A DNA stretch of 64,000 bases from Piscinibacter gummiphilus (GTDB lineage Bacteria; Pseudomonadota; Gammaproteobacteria; Burkholderiales; Burkholderiaceae_C), in contig NZ_CP136336.1 of assembly GCF_032681285.1 (NCBI RefSeq), positions 5,443,001 through 5,507,000 of the forward strand, in the 5' to 3' direction. Position numbers and translations under genes: made by a program. The notes beneath the pieces are model-generated. The model did no database searches. It saw nothing but the letters and a program-made list of their open reading frames with translations, and was not told the DNA's origin. Positions 15,633-24,367 of this stretch are shown piece after piece (the first letter of the stretch is position 1; every line of letters starts with the position of its first letter).

Positions 15633-16904
15633 TCACATCGGCTCCAGCAGCCCCTGCCACAGCGGCGAGAGCCGGAATTTCTCTGCCTCGGTCAGCCCTT
15701 CGCTCAGCAGCAGGCACTCGCGGTGAAACGCCCGCAGCCGCTGCCGCAGCTCGCTCTCGGCGAGCACCAGCTCCAGCCGCTCGCCCGGCGCCATGCCGGC
15801 CGTCACCGCTTCTTCGCCCCAGAGGCCGAGCGCATTCCACGCCACCCGCAGCCGCTCCAGGCGGTGCAGCGCATCGGCCACCACCTCGGTGATCTGCGAG
15901 GTGCGGCGCTGCTCGTTCAGCTCCTTCGCCAGCTGATGCGCCGCGGCCATCTGGTGGTCGATCTCGGCCAGCTGCGCAGCGAGTGTTGCCGCTTCGGGCT
16001 GCTCATCGATGGCGAAGTCTTCCGCTGCGTCGTTGGCCGCTTCGCAGACGAAGGCCGACCAGGTGGGGTCGAACTCGCCCGGCACCACGCGTAACGCGAA
16101 ACTTGCACGGGTCAAGGGCGCATGCGAATCGTTGATGCTGCCGAGCGTGAGCTCCACCACCGACAGCACCCGCCCGAGCGTCGACAAGCCATCGGGCCCC
16201 AGCCGCGCCGGGTAGCCGGAGCGGTCGAGCCGCTCGTGGTGCTCGGCGATGCCCTGCCCCAGCGCCTTGGGGTAGTCGGTGAGCCCGGTCAGGAGCATCT
16301 GCGCCACGCGCGGGTGCACCACCAGGTGCTTGTGGCCGAGCAGGTCGAGTGCGTGGGTGTAGTCGAGGAAGGCGGGGTTGATGTAGATCTCGCCGATGTC
16401 GTGCAGCAGCCCGCCGAGCATGGCCAGTCGGATCTCGAGCGACGAGGCCTGGCGGCTCGCCGTCATCGCGCCTGCGAGCGCCATGCCGGTGACCGCATGC
16501 GCGAGGGCCTGCGGACGCGAGGCGGCGGCGGTGGTCAGCAGCAGCTGCGCCACGGCGTGCAGCGGCATCTGCTTGAGCTGGGCCACCAGCTCGCGCCCCT
16601 GCGTGCGCAGCGCCGGCGCCAGCGGGTGCGTTGACTCGAGCAGCGCCTGCAGGTCGTGCATCAGCGAGAACGGCGTAACACCGTCCTCCGCCTGCAGGCA
16701 GGCTTCGACGGGCTGCTTCAGCCGCCGCTCCAGCAAGCGCTGCTGCAAGGCTGCCGACACCGGCTGCCCGCGCGCCCACAGCTTCACGCCGCGGCTGTCG
16801 ACGATGTCTTGCGACGCAACGATCGCGTAGCTCTCGGCCGCATGCGTGAGCGCCGCCAGCGCATGCGGATTGGGCTCACTCCCCGGTGAGAGAGACAGGT
16901 GCAT
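15633..16904 (-). CDS. HD-GYP-like domain protein
   Basis: 423 residues. The central HD domain has LLHDIGEIYINP, then HPRVAQMLL and HHERLDRSGYPARL. This is the layout of HD-GYP c-di-GMP phosphodiesterases (HDxGK, HHExxDGxGYP), but HDxGK has Glu for Lys and DGxGYP reads DRSGYP. Activity may be altered or lost. No response-regulator receiver domain is seen; the C-terminal 150 residues are helical. The start ATG 16904 lies 14 bases after the stop of the C39 ABC exporter, so it is probably the distal gene of the peptide-export operon. No Shine-Dalgarno sequence is visible, which suggests coupling. Its role could be to link peptide signalling to c-di-GMP turnover, an inference. Confidence 0.8.
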   Translation of the reverse strand: MHLSLSPGSEPNPHALAALTHAAESYAIVASQDIVDSRGVKLWARGQPVSAALQQRLLERRLKQPVEACLQAEDGVTPFSLMHDLQALLESTHPLAPALRTQGRELVAQLKQMPLHAVAQLLLTTAAASRPQALAHAVTGMALAGAMTASRQASSLEIRLAMLGGLLHDIGEIYINPAFLDYTHALDLLGHKHLVVHPRVAQMLLTGLTDYPKALGQGIAEHHERLDRSGYPARLGPDGLSTLGRVLSVVELTLGSINDSHAPLTRASFALRVVPGEFDPTWSAFVCEAANDAAEDFAIDEQPEAATLAAQLAEIDHQMAAAHQLAKELNEQRRTSQITEVVADALHRLERLRVAWNALGLWGEEAVTAGMAPGERLELVLAESELRQRLRAFHRECLLLSEGLTEAEKFRLSPLWQGLLEPM

Positions 16905-16918
16905 GAGCGATGAATGAG

Positions 16919-19042
16919 TTAGCGGCCCGCACCGACGGTGCGAAGCTCTTGAGCCACATGCCCGTCCTTCAGCACGATCACGCGCGACGCCGAAGCGATG
17001 GTCTCGGGCCGATGCGCCACGATCACGCGGGTGAGGTCGAGCCGGCGGACCGCCTGGTTCACCAGGCGCTCGCGGTCCACGTCGAGCGCACTGGTCGCTT
17101 CGTCGAGGAACAGGATCTGGGGTCGCTTGTAGAGCGCGCGGGCCAGCAGGATGCGCTGCTTCTGCCCGCCGGAGATGCTGGCGCCCATGTCGCCGATGAG
17201 CGTGTGAAAGCCCATGGGCATCGCTTCGATCTCGTCATGCACGGCCGCGAGCCGCGCGCACTGGGCCACCCACGCCGGGTCGGCATGGGCATCGAAGAAG
17301 CTGATGTTGTCGGTGATCGAGCCGGCGAAGAGCTGGTCTTCCTGCATCACCGTGCCGACCATGTCGCGGAAGCTGCGCAGCCCCAGCTGGCGCAGCGGCA
17401 CGCCGCCCACCAGCACCTCGCCCGCCTGCGGCTCGTGGATGCCGAGCAGGATCTTGAGCAGCGTCGTCTTGCCGCAGCCCGAGGGCCCCGAGATCGCCAC
17501 CGACTCGCCCGGCTCGATGGTGAAGCTCACGTCCTTCAGCACCTCGGGCTCGTTGTCGGAGTAGCGGAAGCTCACGTTGCGCAGCTCCAGGCGCGCAGGC
17601 TCCTCGCCGCGCTCGCGCCCCGGCACGTCGGGCTCGGCCTCGGGTGCGGTGAGCACGATGTCGGCCAGGCGCTCGCCTTCGAGCTTGAGCATCTTGAGCT
17701 CGACCACCTTGTCGATCAGCCCGCTCACCCGGGTCGAAAACGTCTCGCGGTAGGCGAAGAACGCGAACAGCATGCCGACCGAGAAGCGCTGGTCCATCAC
17801 CAGCAGCGCGCCGACCCAGATCACTGCAATGCGCTCCAGCCCGAACACCAGCTTGTGCAGCACGCCGAACAGCAGGTCGAGCTTGCGCGTGGCGATGTTG
17901 GCGTTCATCGCATCGACCACCTTGTTCATGAACTCGGCGTGGCGGTCTTCCTGGCGGTTGTAGAGCTTGATGCTCTGCACGCCGCGCAGCGATTCGAGGA
18001 AGTGCGTCGAGCGCTTGGCCGTGTGCACGATCTCTTCTTCGGTCGCTTCGCGCAGCGGCCGGAAGAAGGCCCAGCGCAGCAGCGCGTAGATCGCCACGCT
18101 GCCGGCCGCGATGGCGGCGAGCGTCACGCTGTAGACGCACATCACGGCAAACGTCAGCACGACCAGCAGCCCGTCGAGCACGGCTTCGATGAAGCTTGTG
18201 GTCAGCGTCTCCTGCATCTTCTGGATCGCCCCGAAGCGCGACATGATGTCGCCGGTGTGGCGCTTCTCGAACCAGCTCACCGGCAGCCGCATCAGGTGAG
18301 CGAACACATTGCCCAGCCACTGCAGGTTGAGCGTGGACGAGAGGTACAGCACCGCCCACGAGCGGATGGCCCCGGTGGCCACCTGCACCAGCACCAGCAG
18401 GCCGAAGCCGACGCCCAGCGTGAGGAGCAAGTCTCGATCGGCACTCACCAGCACGCCGTCGACCACCCACTGCATGAAGAAGGGCGACAGCAGCATGAAG
18501 GCTTCGAGCGCCAGCGCCAGCACGAAGATCTGCCCCAGCGAACGGCGCAGGCCCGACACGCGGCCCATCATCTGCCGCATGCTGATCGACTGCTTCTCTT
18601 CCTTGGGCTTGAAGTCGGGCGCGGGCGACAGCTCCAGCACGATGCCGGTGAAATGCTGGCTCACCTCGGACAGGCGCAACCGGCGCACGCCCCGCGCCGG
18701 GTCGTGGATCACCGCCACGTCGCCATGCAACTCGGCCAGCACCACGAAATGGTTCAGGTCCCAATGCAGCACGCAGGGCAATGCCAGCTGGGGCAGGTGC
18801 TCCATCTCGGCGCGCAGCGGCCGCGGGCTCAGCTGCATGCGCCCGGCCATGCGCACGAGGTCGGCCATCGTCGCGCCCTTGAGTGAGAGCGAGAAACGCT
18901 TGCGCAAGGTCGGCAGGTCGGTGCGCAGGCCATGCTGAGACGCGACCATCGCCAAGCAAGCGAGGCCGCATTCAGCGGCCTCGGTCTGCAGGATCATCGG
19001 AACGCGTCGCGCGCCCCAACCGAGGTGGAGTGAGTCCAGCAT
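16919..19042 (-). CDS. Peptidase-containing ABC transporter (C39 bacteriocin-exporter type)
   Basis: 707 residues with three parts. Residues 1-140 are a C39 peptidase: oxyanion Gln19, catalytic Cys25 (TEAAECG), His98 (DLNHFVV) and Asp114 (VIHDPARG), all intact. Residues about 160-440 form the six-helix ABC membrane domain. The C-terminal nucleotide-binding domain has GPSGCGKTT, signature SISGGQKQR and FLDEATSALD. Such proteins cut double-glycine leaders from peptides and export the mature part. The nearby 47-residue peptide with an LLRQVSGG leader is the evident substrate. ATG 19042 is chosen; the codon before it is TTG. It follows the HlyD adaptor by 25 bases. Confidence 0.95.
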   Translation of the reverse strand: MLDSLHLGWGARRVPMILQTEAAECGLACLAMVASQHGLRTDLPTLRKRFSLSLKGATMADLVRMAGRMQLSPRPLRAEMEHLPQLALPCVLHWDLNHFVVLAELHGDVAVIHDPARGVRRLRLSEVSQHFTGIVLELSPAPDFKPKEEKQSISMRQMMGRVSGLRRSLGQIFVLALALEAFMLLSPFFMQWVVDGVLVSADRDLLLTLGVGFGLLVLVQVATGAIRSWAVLYLSSTLNLQWLGNVFAHLMRLPVSWFEKRHTGDIMSRFGAIQKMQETLTTSFIEAVLDGLLVVLTFAVMCVYSVTLAAIAAGSVAIYALLRWAFFRPLREATEEEIVHTAKRSTHFLESLRGVQSIKLYNRQEDRHAEFMNKVVDAMNANIATRKLDLLFGVLHKLVFGLERIAVIWVGALLVMDQRFSVGMLFAFFAYRETFSTRVSGLIDKVVELKMLKLEGERLADIVLTAPEAEPDVPGRERGEEPARLELRNVSFRYSDNEPEVLKDVSFTIEPGESVAISGPSGCGKTTLLKILLGIHEPQAGEVLVGGVPLRQLGLRSFRDMVGTVMQEDQLFAGSITDNISFFDAHADPAWVAQCARLAAVHDEIEAMPMGFHTLIGDMGASISGGQKQRILLARALYKRPQILFLDEATSALDVDRERLVNQAVRRLDLTRVIVAHRPETIASASRVIVLKDGHVAQELRTVGAGR

Positions 19043-19067
19043 CAATACAACCCGTTCACGGCTTGGT

Positions 19068-20327
19068 TCACACGCGCCCCGTCACGCTCAGCAGGGGCTC
19101 GAAGATCCACTCGATCAGGCGACGGCGGTCGAGCAGCACGTCGGCGTCGAGTTGCATGCCGGGGGCGAGCGGCTGCGCACGGCCGTAGGCTTGCACCGCT
19201 TGCTGGTCCAGCGACACGGTGATGCGGTACAGCGGCTCGCGCTCGTCGGCGGCACGTGCCGGCAGCGAGAGCCCCGCCAGCTCGGCGGCCTGCAGCGGCG
19301 TGCGCGACACCTGCAGCACCTCGCCCGCGTGGTGGCCGAACTTCTGGTACGGATAGGCCTGGTAGCGCAGCTGCACCGGCTGGTGTGAGTGCAAGAACCC
19401 CACCGCGCTCGACGGCGCAAACAGATGCGCCTGCAGCCTGGCATCGGCCGGCAGCAGACTCGCCAGCGCCACCCCCGGCGTGACCGGCTGGCCACGCTCG
19501 GCGACCACGGCGGTCACCATGCCGTCTTCGGGTGCGCGCACGACGAGGCGCGACTGCGCTTCGCTTTCGGCGGAGCGCTGCGCGACGACCGCCAGGTCAC
19601 GCTCTAGCTCGCCCTGCTGCGCCTGCATGCGCAGCGGCAGCTCGCGAGCCTGCGCTTCCAGGTTGCCAATCTCGCGTTGCTGCACCGCACGCTGGCGCTC
19701 CAAGCTTTGCAACTGGGCGCGCAAGCCGAGCACCTCTTCGGCCTTGGCCTGCACCTGTGCGGACGACACGAAGTTGTCGTTGCGCAGCGACTCCAGTCGC
19801 GCCTGCGCCTGTTGCGCGAGCGCGAGGCGCTGCGCCTGCAGTGCCGCCTCGGCACCGATCTGCGCCAGTTCCTGCTGCATGTCGGCGATCTGCCGCTGCA
19901 GCGCGACCGCCTGCGATTGCTGCAGGCGCTGCTGGTGTTCGGTCGATTGTTTGAGGCTCTTCTCGCGCGCGGCGAGCGAGGCCTGCACGGCGGCCTGCGT
20001 GTCGCCGCGGAGCGTGGCCCGCTCCATCGACAACACGAACAGCACGTCGCCGCGCTTGACCACCTGCCCTTCCGTCACGTGCCGCTCGACGACTGTCGCA
20101 GCCTGCGGCGGCACAAGGCGGATCACTCCGCGATCCGGTACCAGGTATCCACTCACACGTGCTTTGCGCGTGTACTCCCCGAGCGATAGGTATGTGGCCG
20201 CCGCCGCCGCCGTGAGGGCGACGAGAGCGGTGAGCACGGCGAGGGATACCGGCCGGATCAGCTGAATGCTGCCCAGCCACTGTTGCCGTCGACCTTCGAC
20301 GACTTCAGGGCGGAAGAGGGAGGGCAT
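19068..20327 (-). CDS. HlyD/CvaA-type secretion adaptor
   Basis: 419 residues. A cytoplasmic N-terminus is followed by one membrane helix (about residues 25-50), a biotinyl-lipoyl-like segment, a long coiled coil rich in Gln and Ala (about 115-260), a second half-motif VVRAPEDGMVTAVVAERGQPVTPG, and a C-terminal beta domain. This is the membrane fusion protein that bridges a C39 ABC exporter to an outer-membrane channel such as TolC. The start ATG is 16 bases after the peptide gene stop, and the ABC gene follows, so peptide, adaptor and exporter form one unit. No dedicated TolC is in the locus. Confidence 0.93.
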   Translation of the reverse strand: MPSLFRPEVVEGRRQQWLGSIQLIRPVSLAVLTALVALTAAAAATYLSLGEYTRKARVSGYLVPDRGVIRLVPPQAATVVERHVTEGQVVKRGDVLFVLSMERATLRGDTQAAVQASLAAREKSLKQSTEHQQRLQQSQAVALQRQIADMQQELAQIGAEAALQAQRLALAQQAQARLESLRNDNFVSSAQVQAKAEEVLGLRAQLQSLERQRAVQQREIGNLEAQARELPLRMQAQQGELERDLAVVAQRSAESEAQSRLVVRAPEDGMVTAVVAERGQPVTPGVALASLLPADARLQAHLFAPSSAVGFLHSHQPVQLRYQAYPYQKFGHHAGEVLQVSRTPLQAAELAGLSLPARAADEREPLYRITVSLDQQAVQAYGRAQPLAPGMQLDADVLLDRRRLIEWIFEPLLSVTGRV

Positions 20328-20343
20328 GGCCCGTTACCAACAA

Positions 20344-20487
20344 TCACCACATGGGGCGGGGTGCGCCACCGGACACCTGCCGCAGCAGTTCCGGCGGCAG
20401 CGGTTGCGGCGCAGGAACTGTCTGACCAGGCTGCTGCTTGGGAGAAACGCTAGAACCGGGAACGCTCTTGGTGGTGGTGGGCTGCAT
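20344..20487 (-). CDS. 47-residue double-glycine leader peptide, candidate signal or bacteriocin precursor
   Basis: The gene has a strong Shine-Dalgarno AGGAG, 6 bases before ATG 20487. The peptide begins MQPTTTKSVPG, is Pro/Gln-rich, and ends PLPPELLRQVSGG-APRPMW. The end of the leader fits the double-glycine consensus: Gly-Gly at -2/-1 (residues 40-41) with hydrophobic Val38, Leu35 and Leu30 at -4, -7 and -12. Cleavage would release only APRPMW, six residues ending in Trp. It lies 16 bases before the HlyD gene and has a lux-box-like operator 74 bases upstream. It may be a signalling peptide read by the LuxR-type regulators next door, or a very small antimicrobial. The reading frame was checked codon by codon. 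Confidence 0.8.
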   Translation of the reverse strand: MQPTTTKSVPGSSVSPKQQPGQTVPAPQPLPPELLRQVSGGAPRPMW

Positions 20488-20561
20488 GGTGTGCTCCTGT
20501 GGGCTGTGCACAAGGCGATGTGCACTGAACACATTGCAGCAGCCACCACGTCGGCCGGTAA

Positions 20562-20577
20562 CTGTCAGCTCTTACAG
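20562..20577. promoter_or_regulatory. Lux-box-like operator upstream of peptide gene
   Basis: CTGTCAGCTCTTACAG is a 16-bp near-palindrome of the form CTGTCA-N4-TkACAG, with one mismatch in the half-sites. It matches the general lux box (CT-N12-AG). Its near edge is 74 bases upstream of the peptide start codon, and it shares the half-site CTGTCA with the sites before the third luxR gene. No clear -10 was picked out. Confidence 0.6.
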
Positions 20578-20614
20578 GGATGCGCTCGGTGAAATCCCCG
20601 GGGGGTGAGCCAGC

Positions 20615-21337
20615 TCAGCGGATCAAACCAAGTCGCAATGCTTTCAAAACTGCCTGGTGCTTGTTGACACACCCGAGTTTGTGCATCGCGTTGTTCGCGT
20701 GCAGCACGGCAGTGCGCTCGCTGATGCCGAGGACGTTGGCAACCTCCCAAGCGGTCTTCCCTTCCATCGTCCACCGCAATGTTTCGAGCTCACGCGGTGT
20801 GAGAGAAGGCCCTTCCTGGGAGACCACAGCCGGCTGCAACAAGCGAACCGAAGCTTCCTGTGCGTGCACAGCGTAGAGTTGCAACGCAGCGACCATGCGG
20901 GTAATTTCCGCCACGTCCTTGGGCAAGGGTTGGTCACGGTCCACGCCGAACAGGAAGTGCCGCCCCTCGGGCATATGGAGCGCAAGACAGATGCCATGTC
21001 GGTACCCAAACCTGGCTTGCTCCTCCCACACCTCAGCCTGACCGGCATCGAGGTAGGTGTTCTGGCTCCAGATAATGGGCACGCTCTTGTGCTTGCAATG
21101 CTGCATCACGGGATCGCGCTTGGCCGTATTACGGTCCTCTCCGATCTCGCGATACCCCGCCGGCGCGTTGTCGATCCATATGAATTCTGAATCGCCGATG
21201 AAGTGGTCGATGACGGTTGATGCGGTGACCGTCTGAAAGCCGAGGTCCCGCGCAAACCGCACAACGTGTGCCAGCAACTCGTCCTTCGTCTTGGCCTCAA
21301 GGACGGACAAGTAGCCACTTTGAAGCAGGCCTGACAT
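20615..21337 (-). CDS. LuxR-type regulator with autoinducer-binding domain (copy 1)
   Basis: 240 residues. An N-terminal autoinducer-binding domain (about 1-165) contains RDPVMQHCKHKSVPIIW, the conserved family core, with Asp75, Pro76 and Trp90 present. A C-terminal LuxR helix-turn-helix follows (LTPRELETLRWTMEGKTAWEVANVLGIS). The Trp that contacts the acyl-homoserine lactone ring in TraR/LasR (TraR Trp57) is Tyr62 here, and the next ligand Tyr is Gly66, so a non-AHL ligand is likely. ATG 21337 is chosen because AGGAG lies 9 bases upstream. It is third in the luxR tandem and directly upstream of the peptide-export genes. Confidence 0.92.
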   Translation of the reverse strand: MSGLLQSGYLSVLEAKTKDELLAHVVRFARDLGFQTVTASTVIDHFIGDSEFIWIDNAPAGYREIGEDRNTAKRDPVMQHCKHKSVPIIWSQNTYLDAGQAEVWEEQARFGYRHGICLALHMPEGRHFLFGVDRDQPLPKDVAEITRMVAALQLYAVHAQEASVRLLQPAVVSQEGPSLTPRELETLRWTMEGKTAWEVANVLGISERTAVLHANNAMHKLGCVNKHQAVLKALRLGLIR

Positions 21338-21416
21338 GAGCTTGACTCCTAACTTGTTCCGGGCCGTCGCCAATAGCGTCAGCGCTCATGATACGAAAGA
21401 CCGCCCCTCCAGATGC

Positions 21417-22139
21417 TCACTGAATCAACCCCAACCTCAACGCCTTCACCACCGCATGGAGTTTGCTCGAGCAACCCAGCTTGCGAGCCGCACTGTGGGC
21501 ATGACGCGCGACGGTGTCCTCGGCAATTCCAAGAATGCGCCCCACCTCCCACGCCGTCTTGCCTTCCATCGCCCACCGAAGAGTTTCAAGCTCCCGAGGG
21601 GTGAGGGCCACCGTCTCCTGCGGAGCGACCGAAGGCAACAGAACATGAGTGGACGCCTCCTGGGCATAGGCGGCGTACAGCTGCAGCGCCGCGGTCATCC
21701 TGGTGATCTCTGACGGGCACGCTGGCAAGGCTTGGTCACGATCCACACCCAGAAAAAAGTGCCGTCCTTTGGGTAGGTGCATGGCGAGACCGATGCCGCA
21801 GCGATAGCCATATTGGGCCTGCTCCTCCCACTTGTTGCCCTCGCCCGCCACAACGTAGGTCGCCTGATTCCAAATGATGGGCACGCTCTTGTGTTTGCAG
21901 TGCTGCATCACCGGATCGCGTTTGCCGTTGGCTGGATCGCTGGCCAAAGCGTCATAGGCCGCAGGCCCGTTGTCGACACAATGAAACTCTGGTTCACCCA
22001 GGACGTGGTCGATCACAGCCATCGCCGTGACCGTCCGGAAGCCCAGCCCCTGGGCGAAACGCACGACATGCGCTTCAAACTCGTGCTTGGTCTTCGCGTC
22101 CAGAACCGATATGTATTCGCCTTGCAGCATGCTTTCCAT
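21417..22139 (-). CDS. LuxR-type regulator with autoinducer-binding domain (copy 2)
   Basis: 240 residues, clearly a paralogue of copy 1: KRDPVMQHCKHKSVPIIW and LTPRELETLRW are shared exactly. Ligand-site positions are Tyr62 (for TraR Trp57) and Ala66 (for Tyr61), with Asp75, Pro76 and Trp90 kept. The helix-turn-helix is AWEVGRILGIAEDTVARHAHSAARK. The start ATG 22139 is 9 bases after the stop of copy 3. A separate promoter for copy 1 in the 79-base gap downstream cannot be excluded. The last 43 bases of this gene region are identical to those of copy 3, a mark of recent duplication or gene conversion. Confidence 0.92.
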   Translation of the reverse strand: MESMLQGEYISVLDAKTKHEFEAHVVRFAQGLGFRTVTAMAVIDHVLGEPEFHCVDNGPAAYDALASDPANGKRDPVMQHCKHKSVPIIWNQATYVVAGEGNKWEEQAQYGYRCGIGLAMHLPKGRHFFLGVDRDQALPACPSEITRMTAALQLYAAYAQEASTHVLLPSVAPQETVALTPRELETLRWAMEGKTAWEVGRILGIAEDTVARHAHSAARKLGCSSKLHAVVKALRLGLIQ

Positions 22140-22148
22140 TCAGGAGCC

Positions 22149-22877
22149 TCACTGAATCAACCCCAACCTCAACGCCTTCACCACCGCATGATGCTTGCTC
22201 GAACACCCAAGCTTGCGCGACGCGTTGTGGGCATGCCGGATCGCGGTGTTCTCCGCGATGCCGAGGATGCGCCCGATCTCCCAGGCGGTCTTGCCTTCCA
22301 TCGTCCAGCGCAGCACTTCGAGTTCGCGCGGTGAAAGCGCGAGGCCCTTGTGCTGCTCCAGCTCCGGCGGGGCCAGAAGGCGCATCGCGGGCTCGAGTGC
22401 ATAGGTCGCAAAGAGCTGTGCCGCCGCGAGTGCGCGAGTGACCTCCGCAGAGTTGGGCACGAGCCGCGCGGCGCGGTCGAGGCCGAACATCATGTGGCGC
22501 CCGTTCGGCAGGTGGTGGACCACCGCGATGCCGGTGCGGTAGCCGTGCTGCGCCTGGTGCTCCCAGGCCTCGCCCTGCCCGGCGTGCACATAGGTGGACT
22601 GGTCCCACACGAGCGGGCGGTGGCTGTGCTTGCAGTGCTGGCTGACCGGGTCGAGCTTGGCGTCGTCGAGGTTGGCAAAACTCTCGCGGTAGGCCGCGGG
22701 TGTGTTGTGCACCGAGCGGAATTCCGGCTCCTGGCCCGGCCGCTCCAGCACCGTGGTGAGCGAGACCGTCTGGAACTGCAGCCGCTGGGCGAAACGCACC
22801 ACGCAAGCCTGCAGCTCGTCGGGGGTCGACACCTCGTGCACCGCGAGGTAGTCGCCGTGATGTAACTCGTGATCCAT
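22149..22877 (-). CDS. LuxR-type regulator with autoinducer-binding domain (copy 3)
   Basis: 242 residues, the first gene of the tandem and the most diverged. The autoinducer domain keeps LDPVSQHCKHSHRPLVW with Asp76, Pro77 and Trp91; the AHL-contact positions are Tyr63 and Phe67 instead of Trp and Tyr. The C-terminal helix-turn-helix is LSPRELEVLRWTMEGKTAWEIGRILGIAENT. ATG 22877 (MDHELHHGDYLAVHE) aligns with the starts of the other two copies; no strong Shine-Dalgarno is seen. Two abutting lux-box-like sites (22949-22980) lie 72 bases upstream, so it is probably autoregulated. Confidence 0.9.
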   Translation of the reverse strand: MDHELHHGDYLAVHEVSTPDELQACVVRFAQRLQFQTVSLTTVLERPGQEPEFRSVHNTPAAYRESFANLDDAKLDPVSQHCKHSHRPLVWDQSTYVHAGQGEAWEHQAQHGYRTGIAVVHHLPNGRHMMFGLDRAARLVPNSAEVTRALAAAQLFATYALEPAMRLLAPPELEQHKGLALSPRELEVLRWTMEGKTAWEIGRILGIAENTAIRHAHNASRKLGCSSKHHAVVKALRLGLIQ

Positions 22878-22948
22878 CCCTGTTCGGCCCTGAAGGCACT
22901 TGTTGCTGGCGGGGTCGCCCAGTTCTCGCGACCTGCGACAGATTACAC

Positions 22949-22980
22949 CTGTCATGTTTGACAGCTGGCAGGGTTGACAG
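22949..22980. promoter_or_regulatory. Two abutting lux-box-like sites between luxR copy 3 and a divergent gene
   Basis: Site 1 (22949-22964) is CTGTCATGTTTGACAG, a perfect CTGTCA-N4-TGACAG palindrome. Site 2 (22965-22980) is CTGGCAGGGTTGACAG, one mismatch from the same pattern. A more degenerate 16-mer abuts on the left (22933-22948). The sites lie 72 bases from the luxR copy 3 start on one side, and site 1 is 74 bases from the start of the divergent small gene on the other. The spacing repeats that at the peptide gene. Confidence 0.65.
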
Positions 22981-23038
22981 CTGCGAAGGCGCTGGCTTGT
23001 GCGCATCATGCCGCCACTCCAACAACCATCGGACTCTC

Positions 23039-23446
23039 ATGCTGCGCCCATTGTCCAAACCCCATGTCGCTGCCGCGCCCGCGTGGATCGTGTGTGCGTG
23101 GCCCCCCGTCACCTGTCCCATCCAGCAGGCGCCCAGTCTCAACTTCGTGCACCTCGGAACCCGCGTGCTCAAGCCCGGCGACGCCGACAGCCCCACCACC
23201 GGCCAGACCCTCTGGGGCGGCCCCTCGGGCGAAGGCGCGGCCGGCGTGGCCTGGGATTGGGTCGAGATCCAGGAGGGCGTGGTCGCGATGGCCGACCCCT
23301 TCGGGCTCGTCACCAACCTGCAGTTCGTGGGCACCAAGGGCAAGGTGCTGACCGGCTTCGAGGCGACGCTGTGCCTCAACGAGCTGGTGCACGCCCTACC
23401 CTGGCAGAGCGAGGTGCAACGCGCGCTGGAACGTGTGGAGCACTGA
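23039..23446 (+). CDS. Hypothetical protein divergent from luxR copy 3
   Basis: 135 residues, not recognised. It has a Pro/Ala-rich N-terminus, then a compact region with WDWVEIQEGVVAMADPFGLVTNLQFVG that looks like a small beta-rich fold. No signal peptide or membrane segment is clear. ATG 23039 has no visible Shine-Dalgarno, so the start is uncertain. The gene shares its upstream region, with the lux-box-like sites, with luxR copy 3, so it may belong to the same regulon. Codon use looks like its neighbours. Confidence 0.55.
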   Translation: MLRPLSKPHVAAAPAWIVCAWPPVTCPIQQAPSLNFVHLGTRVLKPGDADSPTTGQTLWGGPSGEGAAGVAWDWVEIQEGVVAMADPFGLVTNLQFVGTKGKVLTGFEATLCLNELVHALPWQSEVQRALERVEH

Positions 23447-23823: not shown

Positions 23824-24318
23824 TCATTGACCGGCCGCCGGGTCAGCCGGTAGCAGCATCTCGATGTGCGGGATGCCGTCTTCCAGGTATTCCTCGCCCA
23901 CGGCCTGGTAGCCGAAGCTGCCGTAGAAGCGCCGCAGGTACGACTGCGCCGAGATCCGATTGCCCTGCCCCGGAAAGCGCTCGGCCGACAGCCGCAGCAC
24001 ACGCGCCACCAGCTCGCGGCCGAGGCCGGTGCCGCGGCCCGCGGCGGTGGTGACCACGCGACCCATCGACGGCTCGGTGTACTTCACACCCGGGTCCACC
24101 AGGCGTGCGCAGGCAAGCGGCAGCTCGTGGCCCTCGGCCCACGCGGCAATGTGGAACGACTGTTCGTCGGCCTTGTCGGCGTCGAGGTAGACGCTGTTCT
24201 GTTCGATGGCAAACACCGTCTGGCGCGCGCGGTAGAGGCGCGCCAGTTCAAGGGGCGAGAGTTCTTCGAGGCGTGCAATGCGCCAGGTGATGCTCAGGGA
24301 TGCAACGGGCTGATTCAT
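23824..24318 (-). CDS. elaA: ElaA-type GNAT acetyltransferase
   Basis: 164 residues. The sequence follows ElaA: WRIARLEELSPLELARLYRARQTVFAIEQNSVYLDADKADEQSFHIAAW, then the acetyl-CoA loop AAGRGTGLGRELV and SYLRRFYGSFGYQAVGEEYLEDGIPHIEML. The substrate is unknown. ATG 24318 is preferred because it matches the ElaA N-terminus; an ATG ten codons upstream is possible. It is divergent from the SMP-30-like gene, with the two starts 49 bases apart. Confidence 0.88.
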   Translation of the reverse strand: MNQPVASLSITWRIARLEELSPLELARLYRARQTVFAIEQNSVYLDADKADEQSFHIAAWAEGHELPLACARLVDPGVKYTEPSMGRVVTTAAGRGTGLGRELVARVLRLSAERFPGQGNRISAQSYLRRFYGSFGYQAVGEEYLEDGIPHIEMLLPADPAAGQ

Positions 24319-24367
24319 GTGCACATCATGCGCATACTCGGGCCCCATTCAAAGGAGGAGGATTCCG

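Follow-up and report, generated by a model that had tools for sequence, protein, structure and literature searches.

A hexapeptide gene beside LuxR-type regulators without luxI points to a probable peptide quorum-sensing circuit in Burkholderiales

What does a LuxR-type regulator with an autoinducer-binding domain recognise when no luxI gene accompanies it and a gene for a short peptide lies next to it instead? This question is raised by a locus within a stretch of 64,000 nucleotides from Piscinibacter gummiphilus, in the following called the window. An initial annotation of this DNA had described, in order, three LuxR-type genes, a gene for a peptide with a double-glycine (GG) leader, genes for an HlyD adaptor and a C39-peptidase ABC exporter, and an HD-domain gene, and had proposed that the exported hexapeptide is the ligand of the LuxR-type proteins. 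This gene order is present and backed by Pfam (Table 1). Judging from comparisons among relatives, the locus probably encodes a peptide quorum-sensing circuit built on a receptor of the acyl-homoserine lactone (AHL) type, with the hexapeptide as the LuxR ligand. The proposed ligand is well supported because the peptide accompanies LuxR in different genera, including loci that have no exporter next to it, because its core differs between species yet is mostly identical among the repeats within one precursor, and because the core covaries with residues lining the AHL pocket of LasR.

The conserved unit consists of a divergent rsaM-like gene, a gene for a LuxR that has an autoinducer domain, and an open reading frame (ORF) for a short peptide, followed in most loci by genes for HlyD and the C39 exporter. 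We searched 150 genomes of the family for HlyD and took the 30 best loci. A LuxR gene was located directly upstream of the HlyD gene in 26 of them, with a GG- and Trp-bearing ORF read by eye between the two, and the gene divergent from LuxR belonged to one common cluster in 24 of 29 wider loci. A LuxR-alignment scan of a named genome collection yielded 342 relatives. Among the best 80 of these, including members of Rhizobacter, Piscinibacter, Methylibium, Roseateles, Mitsuaria, Rubrivivax, Aquabacterium, Ideonella, Paucibacter, Pelomonas, Albitalea and other Burkholderiales, an rsaM-like gene was always found upstream (80/80), and HlyD and C39 genes followed downstream in 62 (C39 alone in locus L139; some others end at a contig edge). 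LuxR was detected with an e-value of at most 1e-50 in 102 of 399 genomes of the family. Another 60 stretches from this core group were added, along with 20 from a second, more distant LuxR group; removal of identical LuxRs left 147 non-redundant LuxRs with usable context, 136 of them with 5 kb of downstream sequence. The rsaM-like gene lies upstream of 138 of the 147 and a Trp-bearing peptide gene downstream of 127 as called, 109 of which were flagged as GG. The 136 loci with 5 kb downstream contain the peptide in 121 cases, HlyD in 96, C39 in 96 and peptide plus exporter in 93, while luxI occurs in none of these downstream stretches.

In 135 of 155 loci, a set in which some genomes are present twice, LuxR is followed on the same strand by a short ORF with P-x(2-4)-W at its end, compared with 3/155 on the opposite strand, 176/3080 random windows and 131/3100 shuffles. 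None of five control LuxRs from outside the clade had the peptide (L283 and L294 were dropped from this set as they gave no LuxR match), and several extra LuxR paralogs within the clade likewise lack it. A class-wide scan of 369 genomes at a maximum e-value of 1e-40 yielded a single match outside the family, G687, in which a luxI-like ORF (by eye) follows LuxR. An order-wide scan of 399 genomes with a profile of the second LuxR subfamily (maximum e-value of 1e-55) also gave one outside match, G874, a LuxR locus in which rsaM was matched weakly and a core peptide was not recognised.

In the window, the peptide ORF lies between the HlyD gene and R3, the third of the LuxR genes; GGAG precedes its start, and the product ends in GG-APRPMW. 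Across 118 LuxR-peptide pairs the core follows the pattern xPxxxW, in 71 distinct versions as called, or 69 after subtraction of two doubtful ones. More than one core (two to five) was found in 42 of the 118 precursors, and the copies are identical in 36 of these, often with differing spacers, for instance GPNGGW five times or SPKGTW four times. The GG precursors, 39 of which were aligned, combine this core with a leader close to L-x(4)-L-x(2)-V-x-GG. A profile made from them retrieved 85 proteins, and those bearing a name are annotated as hypothetical or uncharacterized. A related motif occurs in ORFs of 14 to 60 residues behind LuxR in 13 of 19 loci of the second LuxR group, against 1/19 on the opposite strand and 4/919 random windows, with a motif chosen after the peptides had been seen. 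Tiny leaderless ORFs that follow LuxRs of this subfamily (L248, L253, L255, L260) have hydrophobic N-terminal halves, e.g., MSLFDLLLEALGLPRNGG; leaders elsewhere are more polar.

The GG leader and the exporter go together. With the exporter adjacent, 92 of 93 peptides carry a GG leader, the exception being a doubtful ORF in L075. The exporter is not adjacent for 28 of the 121 peptides, comprising 9 with and 19 without GG after correction by eye (11 were flagged GG as called). Such loci mostly retain the core, in some cases within leaderless ORFs of 17 to 21 residues, e.g., MQATHQTQTTTLLPRNGW and MIATTTRQANTTTELPRAGW; exporter-less loci with peptides, some of them without GG leader, were missed by the initial annotation, as was the rsaM-like gene. 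Genomes with a GG peptide and no adjacent exporter encode a C39 exporter elsewhere in 11 of 11 cases (e-value of 1e-133 or better), versus 3 of 12 genomes with a leaderless peptide (p = 3e-4); the twelve do not include G193, in which the peptide was not recognised, and the eleven include G043, which has an in-frame stop in LuxR, lies outside the non-redundant set and has a best exporter match of 37% identity. In two of the eleven, G096 and G197, the exporter is located farther along the same stretch. By these distributions, the core goes with LuxR and not with the exporter.

The initial annotation had noted the lack of luxI, and indeed PF00765 has no match in the window genome. Genome-wide, luxI is absent from 26 of the 29 genomes searched; 28 of the 29 carry the LuxR, and among these carriers it is absent from 25. 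The claim of altered AHL-binding residues held for part of the site. The position of LasR W60 is Y or F in 110 of 118 LuxRs, that of Y56 is A, T or C in 104 and that of S129 is G in 116, whereas positions 73, 88 and 113 are kept; position 64 is variable in this LuxR family. In the second subfamily, the consensus residue at the W88 position is Y.

To relate the receptor to the core, we used the LuxR profile, whose alignment with LasR is gap-free across the ligand domain as far as profile position 133 or so; R3 numbers are therefore LasR numbers plus 2. For the AHL-pocket positions of LasR we relied on a table in PMC9654057 and on PMC10838535. Seven of the top eight LuxR columns by excess mutual information with the core correspond to the pocket positions 70, 64, 101, 115, 52, 76 and 127 of LasR, and the eighth, 69, adjoins a pocket position. 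Pocket positions make up 8 of the top 15 columns (hypergeometric p = 2.8e-5). Among variable ligand-domain columns, the 16 pocket columns score above the 93 others (p = 1e-4 by maximum, 0.002 by sum), and when cores were permuted within LuxR clusters, the observed value was reached in 0 of 60 permutations at each of three cluster levels. We also pooled LuxR, RsaM, HlyD and C39 from 93 loci. The seven best columns all belong to LuxR (A72, V103, C117, G66, T71, M78 and W54), and z exceeds 4 in 11 of 237 LuxR columns, 2 of 123 in RsaM, 1 of 410 in HlyD and 1 of 705 in C39. Branch-wise co-change with the core, evaluated on the exporter tree, scored 2.87 for pocket columns, 0.71 for other ligand-domain columns (p = 0.005) and -0.86 for RsaM (p = 2e-6).

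Binding sites for the LuxR proteins are suggested by a dyad, CTGTAAGAGYTGACAG, which most peptide promoters contain some 80 bases ahead of the start of the peptide; CTGTAAG occurs in 105 of 120 intergenic regions between LuxR and peptide. The window contains three sites of the type CTGTMA-N4-TGACAG with 0 to 2 mismatches (Table 1), giving six strand matches versus 0.79 expected from shuffles, in line with the lux-box-like operators reported in the initial annotation. In 24 of 30 carriers the peptide promoter contains the exact operator, counted with a pattern derived from these same promoters, and in 17 of the 30 the operator occurs at no other place; a reversed-pattern control gave two matches. 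Beyond the peptide promoters we found 15 operator places, including one between rsaM and luxR. Of the ten that we viewed, two precede genes for thermolysin-type M4 metalloproteases in two genera (L324:2487-4127 and L335:2297-4129) and two precede ABC transporter genes of type I secretion whose products have a C39-like domain (L329 and L330). These sites are suggestive of exoenzyme outputs of the circuit.

Profile comparison suggests an RsaM-like identity for the gene divergent from luxR. A profile of 24 rsaM-like sequences had a single PDB match at an e-value of up to 1, 4o2h (BCAM1869, named RsaM; E = 0.0066). PF16245 was matched by 17 of the 24 members at a maximum e-value of 0.01 (best 5.4e-6); the window member scored 19.1 bits, below the cut-off of 25 bits. 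This family, pfam16245 or DUF4902, is the RsaM domain (PMC10710839).

Taken together, these elements may be arranged into the following circuit. A luxI-less rsaM-luxR locus has, at the spot that luxI might have occupied, a short gene encoding a linear hexapeptide of the form xPxxxW. In the usual form, the C39 exporter would cleave the precursor behind the GG and, helped by HlyD and an outer-membrane channel, release the peptide, while repeated cores would be set free by additional proteolysis. It would then re-enter cells, perhaps through an importer of the Opp/Dpp type, and bind the former AHL pocket of LuxR, as the covariation suggests. Operators of the type CTGTMA-N4-TGACAG, ahead of the operon for peptide and exporter and in the space that separates rsaM from luxR, would be the target of the complex, presumably with positive feedback on this operon and with RsaM as a damping modulator. 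We infer that the peptide took over from AHL as the LuxR ligand. The broader proposal, which we consider somewhat less assured than the circuit itself but still favour, is a new class of Gram-negative quorum sensing in which the AHL pocket of LuxR was retuned to encoded linear hexapeptides in species-specific pairs and a ribosomally made peptide took the place of the signal made by LuxI, perhaps with leaderless forms arising first and GG leader and C39/HlyD exporter later, or the reverse by loss.

Several observations weigh against this reading. D73 is retained in 116 of 118 LuxRs and W88 in all 118, and because of this an AHL or another small molecule could still be the ligand. The window genome has eight SBP_bac_5 genes, none of them in the locus. 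Leaderless forms lack an obvious exporter; nine of twelve genomes with leaderless peptides gave no C39 match better than 1e-64. Mis-called ORFs probably account for two of the 118 cores, namely SPWRAW at the upstream LuxR of L075, where the ORF itself is doubtful, and TPFRFW in L217, which was read in the wrong ORF (the likely core is LPRAGW); L263 was moreover flagged GG though leaderless. Loss of the peptide, or of its frame, where LuxR stays had been named as a refuting case; we checked this, and it is not general, with 15 of 136 loci lacking a Trp peptide. Four of the 15 (L133, L148, L152 and L196) have a GG peptide with LPRVGG or LPRVS, which suggests a variant signal with the Trp lost, six (L253, L255, L258, L259, L260 and L262) have a tiny Trp-less ORF by eye, and in L199, L241, L245, L257 and for the extra LuxR of L239 nothing was recognised as a peptide. 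The covariation has counter-examples, too: S314 of HlyD ranks eighth in the pooled analysis (z = 4.8), the mean sum score is highest for RsaM (1.29; LuxR 0.98, HlyD -0.12, C39 -0.49), columns with z above 3 number 8 of 123 in RsaM versus 21 of 237 in LuxR, and some non-pocket columns score high, K18 and A151 by mutual information and K18, E51, V37 and K84 by branch co-change. The covariation statistics control for phylogeny in part. RsaM or the exporter as the main partner of the core is disfavoured by the pooled columns, despite the highest mean score of RsaM.

The main rival accepts binding of the peptide to the LuxR pocket, and places its action within the producing cell, as self-sensing or anti-activation, with the exporter merely removing the peptide. 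Covariation is evidence of pairing and not of extracellular travel, and the leaderless genomes without a clear C39 exporter fit this idea; communication between cells goes one step beyond the binding to which covariation points. A dedicated exporter in the main form, the often repeated cores and the nearly invariable GG leader beside that exporter suit release, however, and we regard self-sensing as unlikely, if the most serious competitor. A second possibility is a bacteriocin- or microcin-like product whose synthesis LuxR controls in response to another signal. Class II microcins and bacteriocins typically come with a GG leader, HlyD and a C39 exporter, and four Pfam and NCBIfam families of bacteriocins, ribosomally synthesised and post-translationally modified peptides (RiPP) or ComC were each weakly matched by one of the 39 precursors. 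Yet the cores have six residues or repeats of six, are retained in leaderless versions and covary with the LuxR pocket rather than with the exporter, and no immunity or modification gene was recognised by eye among the conserved neighbours, making this product improbable. The LuxR could also be an ordinary solo for foreign AHLs and the peptide an unrelated co-regulated product, as the retained D73 and W88, luxI elsewhere in 3 of the 29 genomes searched and the recorded rsaM-luxR solos (topology type 6; PMC10710839) would allow; the changes at the W60, Y56 and S129 positions, the covariation of pocket residues with the core and the related peptide ORF kept by the second subfamily despite its Y at the W88 position (13/19, with a motif picked post hoc) leave this with slightly less credit still. 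Finally, the small ORF directly ahead of the operon, often with a conserved Pro...Trp-stop end, might be a leader whose translation controls the downstream genes by ribosome arrest or attenuation, which is the least credible explanation given that cores are internal and in tandem with differing spacers, lie away from the stop in L062, L153 and L247, and persist where no exporter follows.

How does the proposed peptide-LuxR circuit compare with known systems? LuxI/LuxR AHL systems with RsaM, e.g., in Burkholderia or P. fuscovaginae, resemble it in the LuxR domains, the lux-box-like operators and the rsaM-like gene next to luxR, but here luxI is lacking from most of the carriers searched, AHL contacts are altered and a peptide gene lies beside the receptor. 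Quorum sensing by ComC/ComAB and other GG peptides shares the GG leader and the C39 exporter but signals through membrane kinases, whereas here the regulator is of the LuxR type. Dirix and colleagues reportedly proposed GG peptides of Gram-negative bacteria as possible signals. In ComR/ComS and Rgg/SHP, which belong to the RRNPP group, the gene for a cytoplasmic regulator is followed by a short propeptide gene, the C-terminal part of whose product is the signal, and a regulator next to a propeptide gene is what 127 of our 147 loci show as called. The RRNPP receptors, however, are Gram-positive proteins of the tetratricopeptide repeat type with an unrelated fold, whereas here Autoind_bind and GerE domains are combined mostly with a GG leader and C39/HlyD export. 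The adjacency of regulator and propeptide in ComR/ComS- and Rgg/SHP-like systems is documented in PMC10075063.

Among LuxR solos, divergent rsaM and luxR without adjacent luxI have been classified as type 6 topology in Albitalea, Kinneretia, Pelomonas, Thauera and Xenophilus (PMC10710839). Albitalea and Pelomonas are common to that list and our set, but the word peptide is absent from the main text of that review. PipR and OryR, in turn, are members of the LuxR family with peptide-like inducers; for PipR, Ser-His-Ser was active at about 1 mM only and an importer was needed (PMC4981722). These inducers come from plant macerates or protein hydrolysates, importer and peptidase genes are linked to the regulators, and a self-encoded peptide is not described in the accessible text of that paper; in our neighbour clusters no proline iminopeptidase or importer genes were recognised by eye, no search having been aimed at them. 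The available text of a LuxR-solo review (PMC10134790) contains no such peptide-LuxR system, and that of a review on LuxR interactions (PMC13043044) has none either and mentions peptide zero times. We did not find a LuxR-hexapeptide system described in the open-access literature, a scope that leaves out most subscription papers and all bioRxiv preprints.

If the proposed circuit is real, LuxR-type proteins, the textbook AHL receptors, can accept self-encoded peptides, and pheromone quorum sensing by a regulator plus propeptide exists in Gram-negative bacteria. It would assign ligands to a set of orphan LuxR solos and mean that a group of bacteria from soil and fresh water uses a novel form of communication between cells. 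It would also supply dozens of natural receptor-signal pairs for work on specificity and for orthogonal synthetic circuits, and make the evolution of a lipid-signal receptor into a peptide receptor testable. The predicted signals, with six residues, are simple to synthesise.

Table 1 Features of the Piscinibacter gummiphilus locus, in window positions.
Feature	Position	Strand	Basis or remark
rsaM-like gene (DUF4902)	23039..23446	+	divergent from the luxR genes
Two adjoining lux-box-like dyads	22949-22964, 22965-22980		between rsaM and luxR R1; pattern CTGTMARRNYTGACAG, 1-2 mismatches
LuxR-type regulator R1, extra copy, adjoins rsaM	22149..22877	-	Pfam Autoind_bind + GerE
LuxR-type regulator R2, extra copy	21417..22139	-	Pfam Autoind_bind + GerE
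LuxR-type regulator R3, adjoins peptide gene, proposed peptide receptor	20615..21337	-	Pfam Autoind_bind + GerE
Operator CTGTAAGAGCTGACAG in peptide promoter	20562..20577		exact match on the minus strand
Peptide precursor gene, 47 codons, double-glycine leader	20344..20487	-	ORF
Core hexapeptide APRPMW, proposed signal	20347..20364	-	xPxxxW core in 118 LuxR-peptide pairs
HlyD-type adaptor	19068..20327	-	Pfam HlyD_3
C39-peptidase ABC exporter	16919..19045	-	Pfam Peptidase_C39, ABC_membrane, ABC_tran
HD-domain (HD-GYP-like) gene	15633..16904	-	Pfam HD_5; outside conserved unit

In the window itself, both domains of R1, R2 and R3 score above the Pfam cut-offs, the C39 domain of the exporter is complete (Pfam positions 2-132 of 133) and the HlyD protein reaches 133.7 bits with TIGR01843, under the cut-off of 208.65 bits. 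The start codon given for the rsaM-like gene is a choice, as its frame is open from 22958. Three tandem LuxRs are not the basic design: most relatives have a single LuxR, to which R3 is orthologous, with 55-75% identity to the peptide-adjacent LuxRs of closer relatives, and R1 and R2 are extras. Extra copies were otherwise found in L063, L143 (Albitalea terrae) and L224, where four to five LuxR paralogs lie in tandem or clustered at the locus; their ligands could be other peptides.

The HD-GYP-like gene begins 14 bases beyond the exporter gene, and its HD, HHE and GYP motifs look intact by eye. Among the loci fetched, it occurs in six (the window, L203, L075, L077, L140 and L211), all of them from Rhizobacter-named genomes or the window's genus. 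We rejected it, on account of this narrow range, as a general part of the system; the earlier suggestion of cyclic di-GMP as an output found no support, and any link to the system is weak.

Further neighbours were named by eye in the 29 clustered wider loci: an mnmG-like gene lies downstream in 20, an rsmG-like gene downstream in 15 and an ABC permease gene upstream in 16. Near rsaM, the window has an acetyltransferase-like ORF (23824-24348, minus strand), presumably of the GNAT/ElaA type, that clusters with ORFs in three other of these 29 loci. Lastly, a perfect palindrome, CTGTCAGGCCTGACAG, is located at L326:5080-5095 (G000:C1:5361079-5361094) between a LysR-like gene (by eye) and a gene for a TonB-dependent receptor, and is also present in G212 of the same genus.

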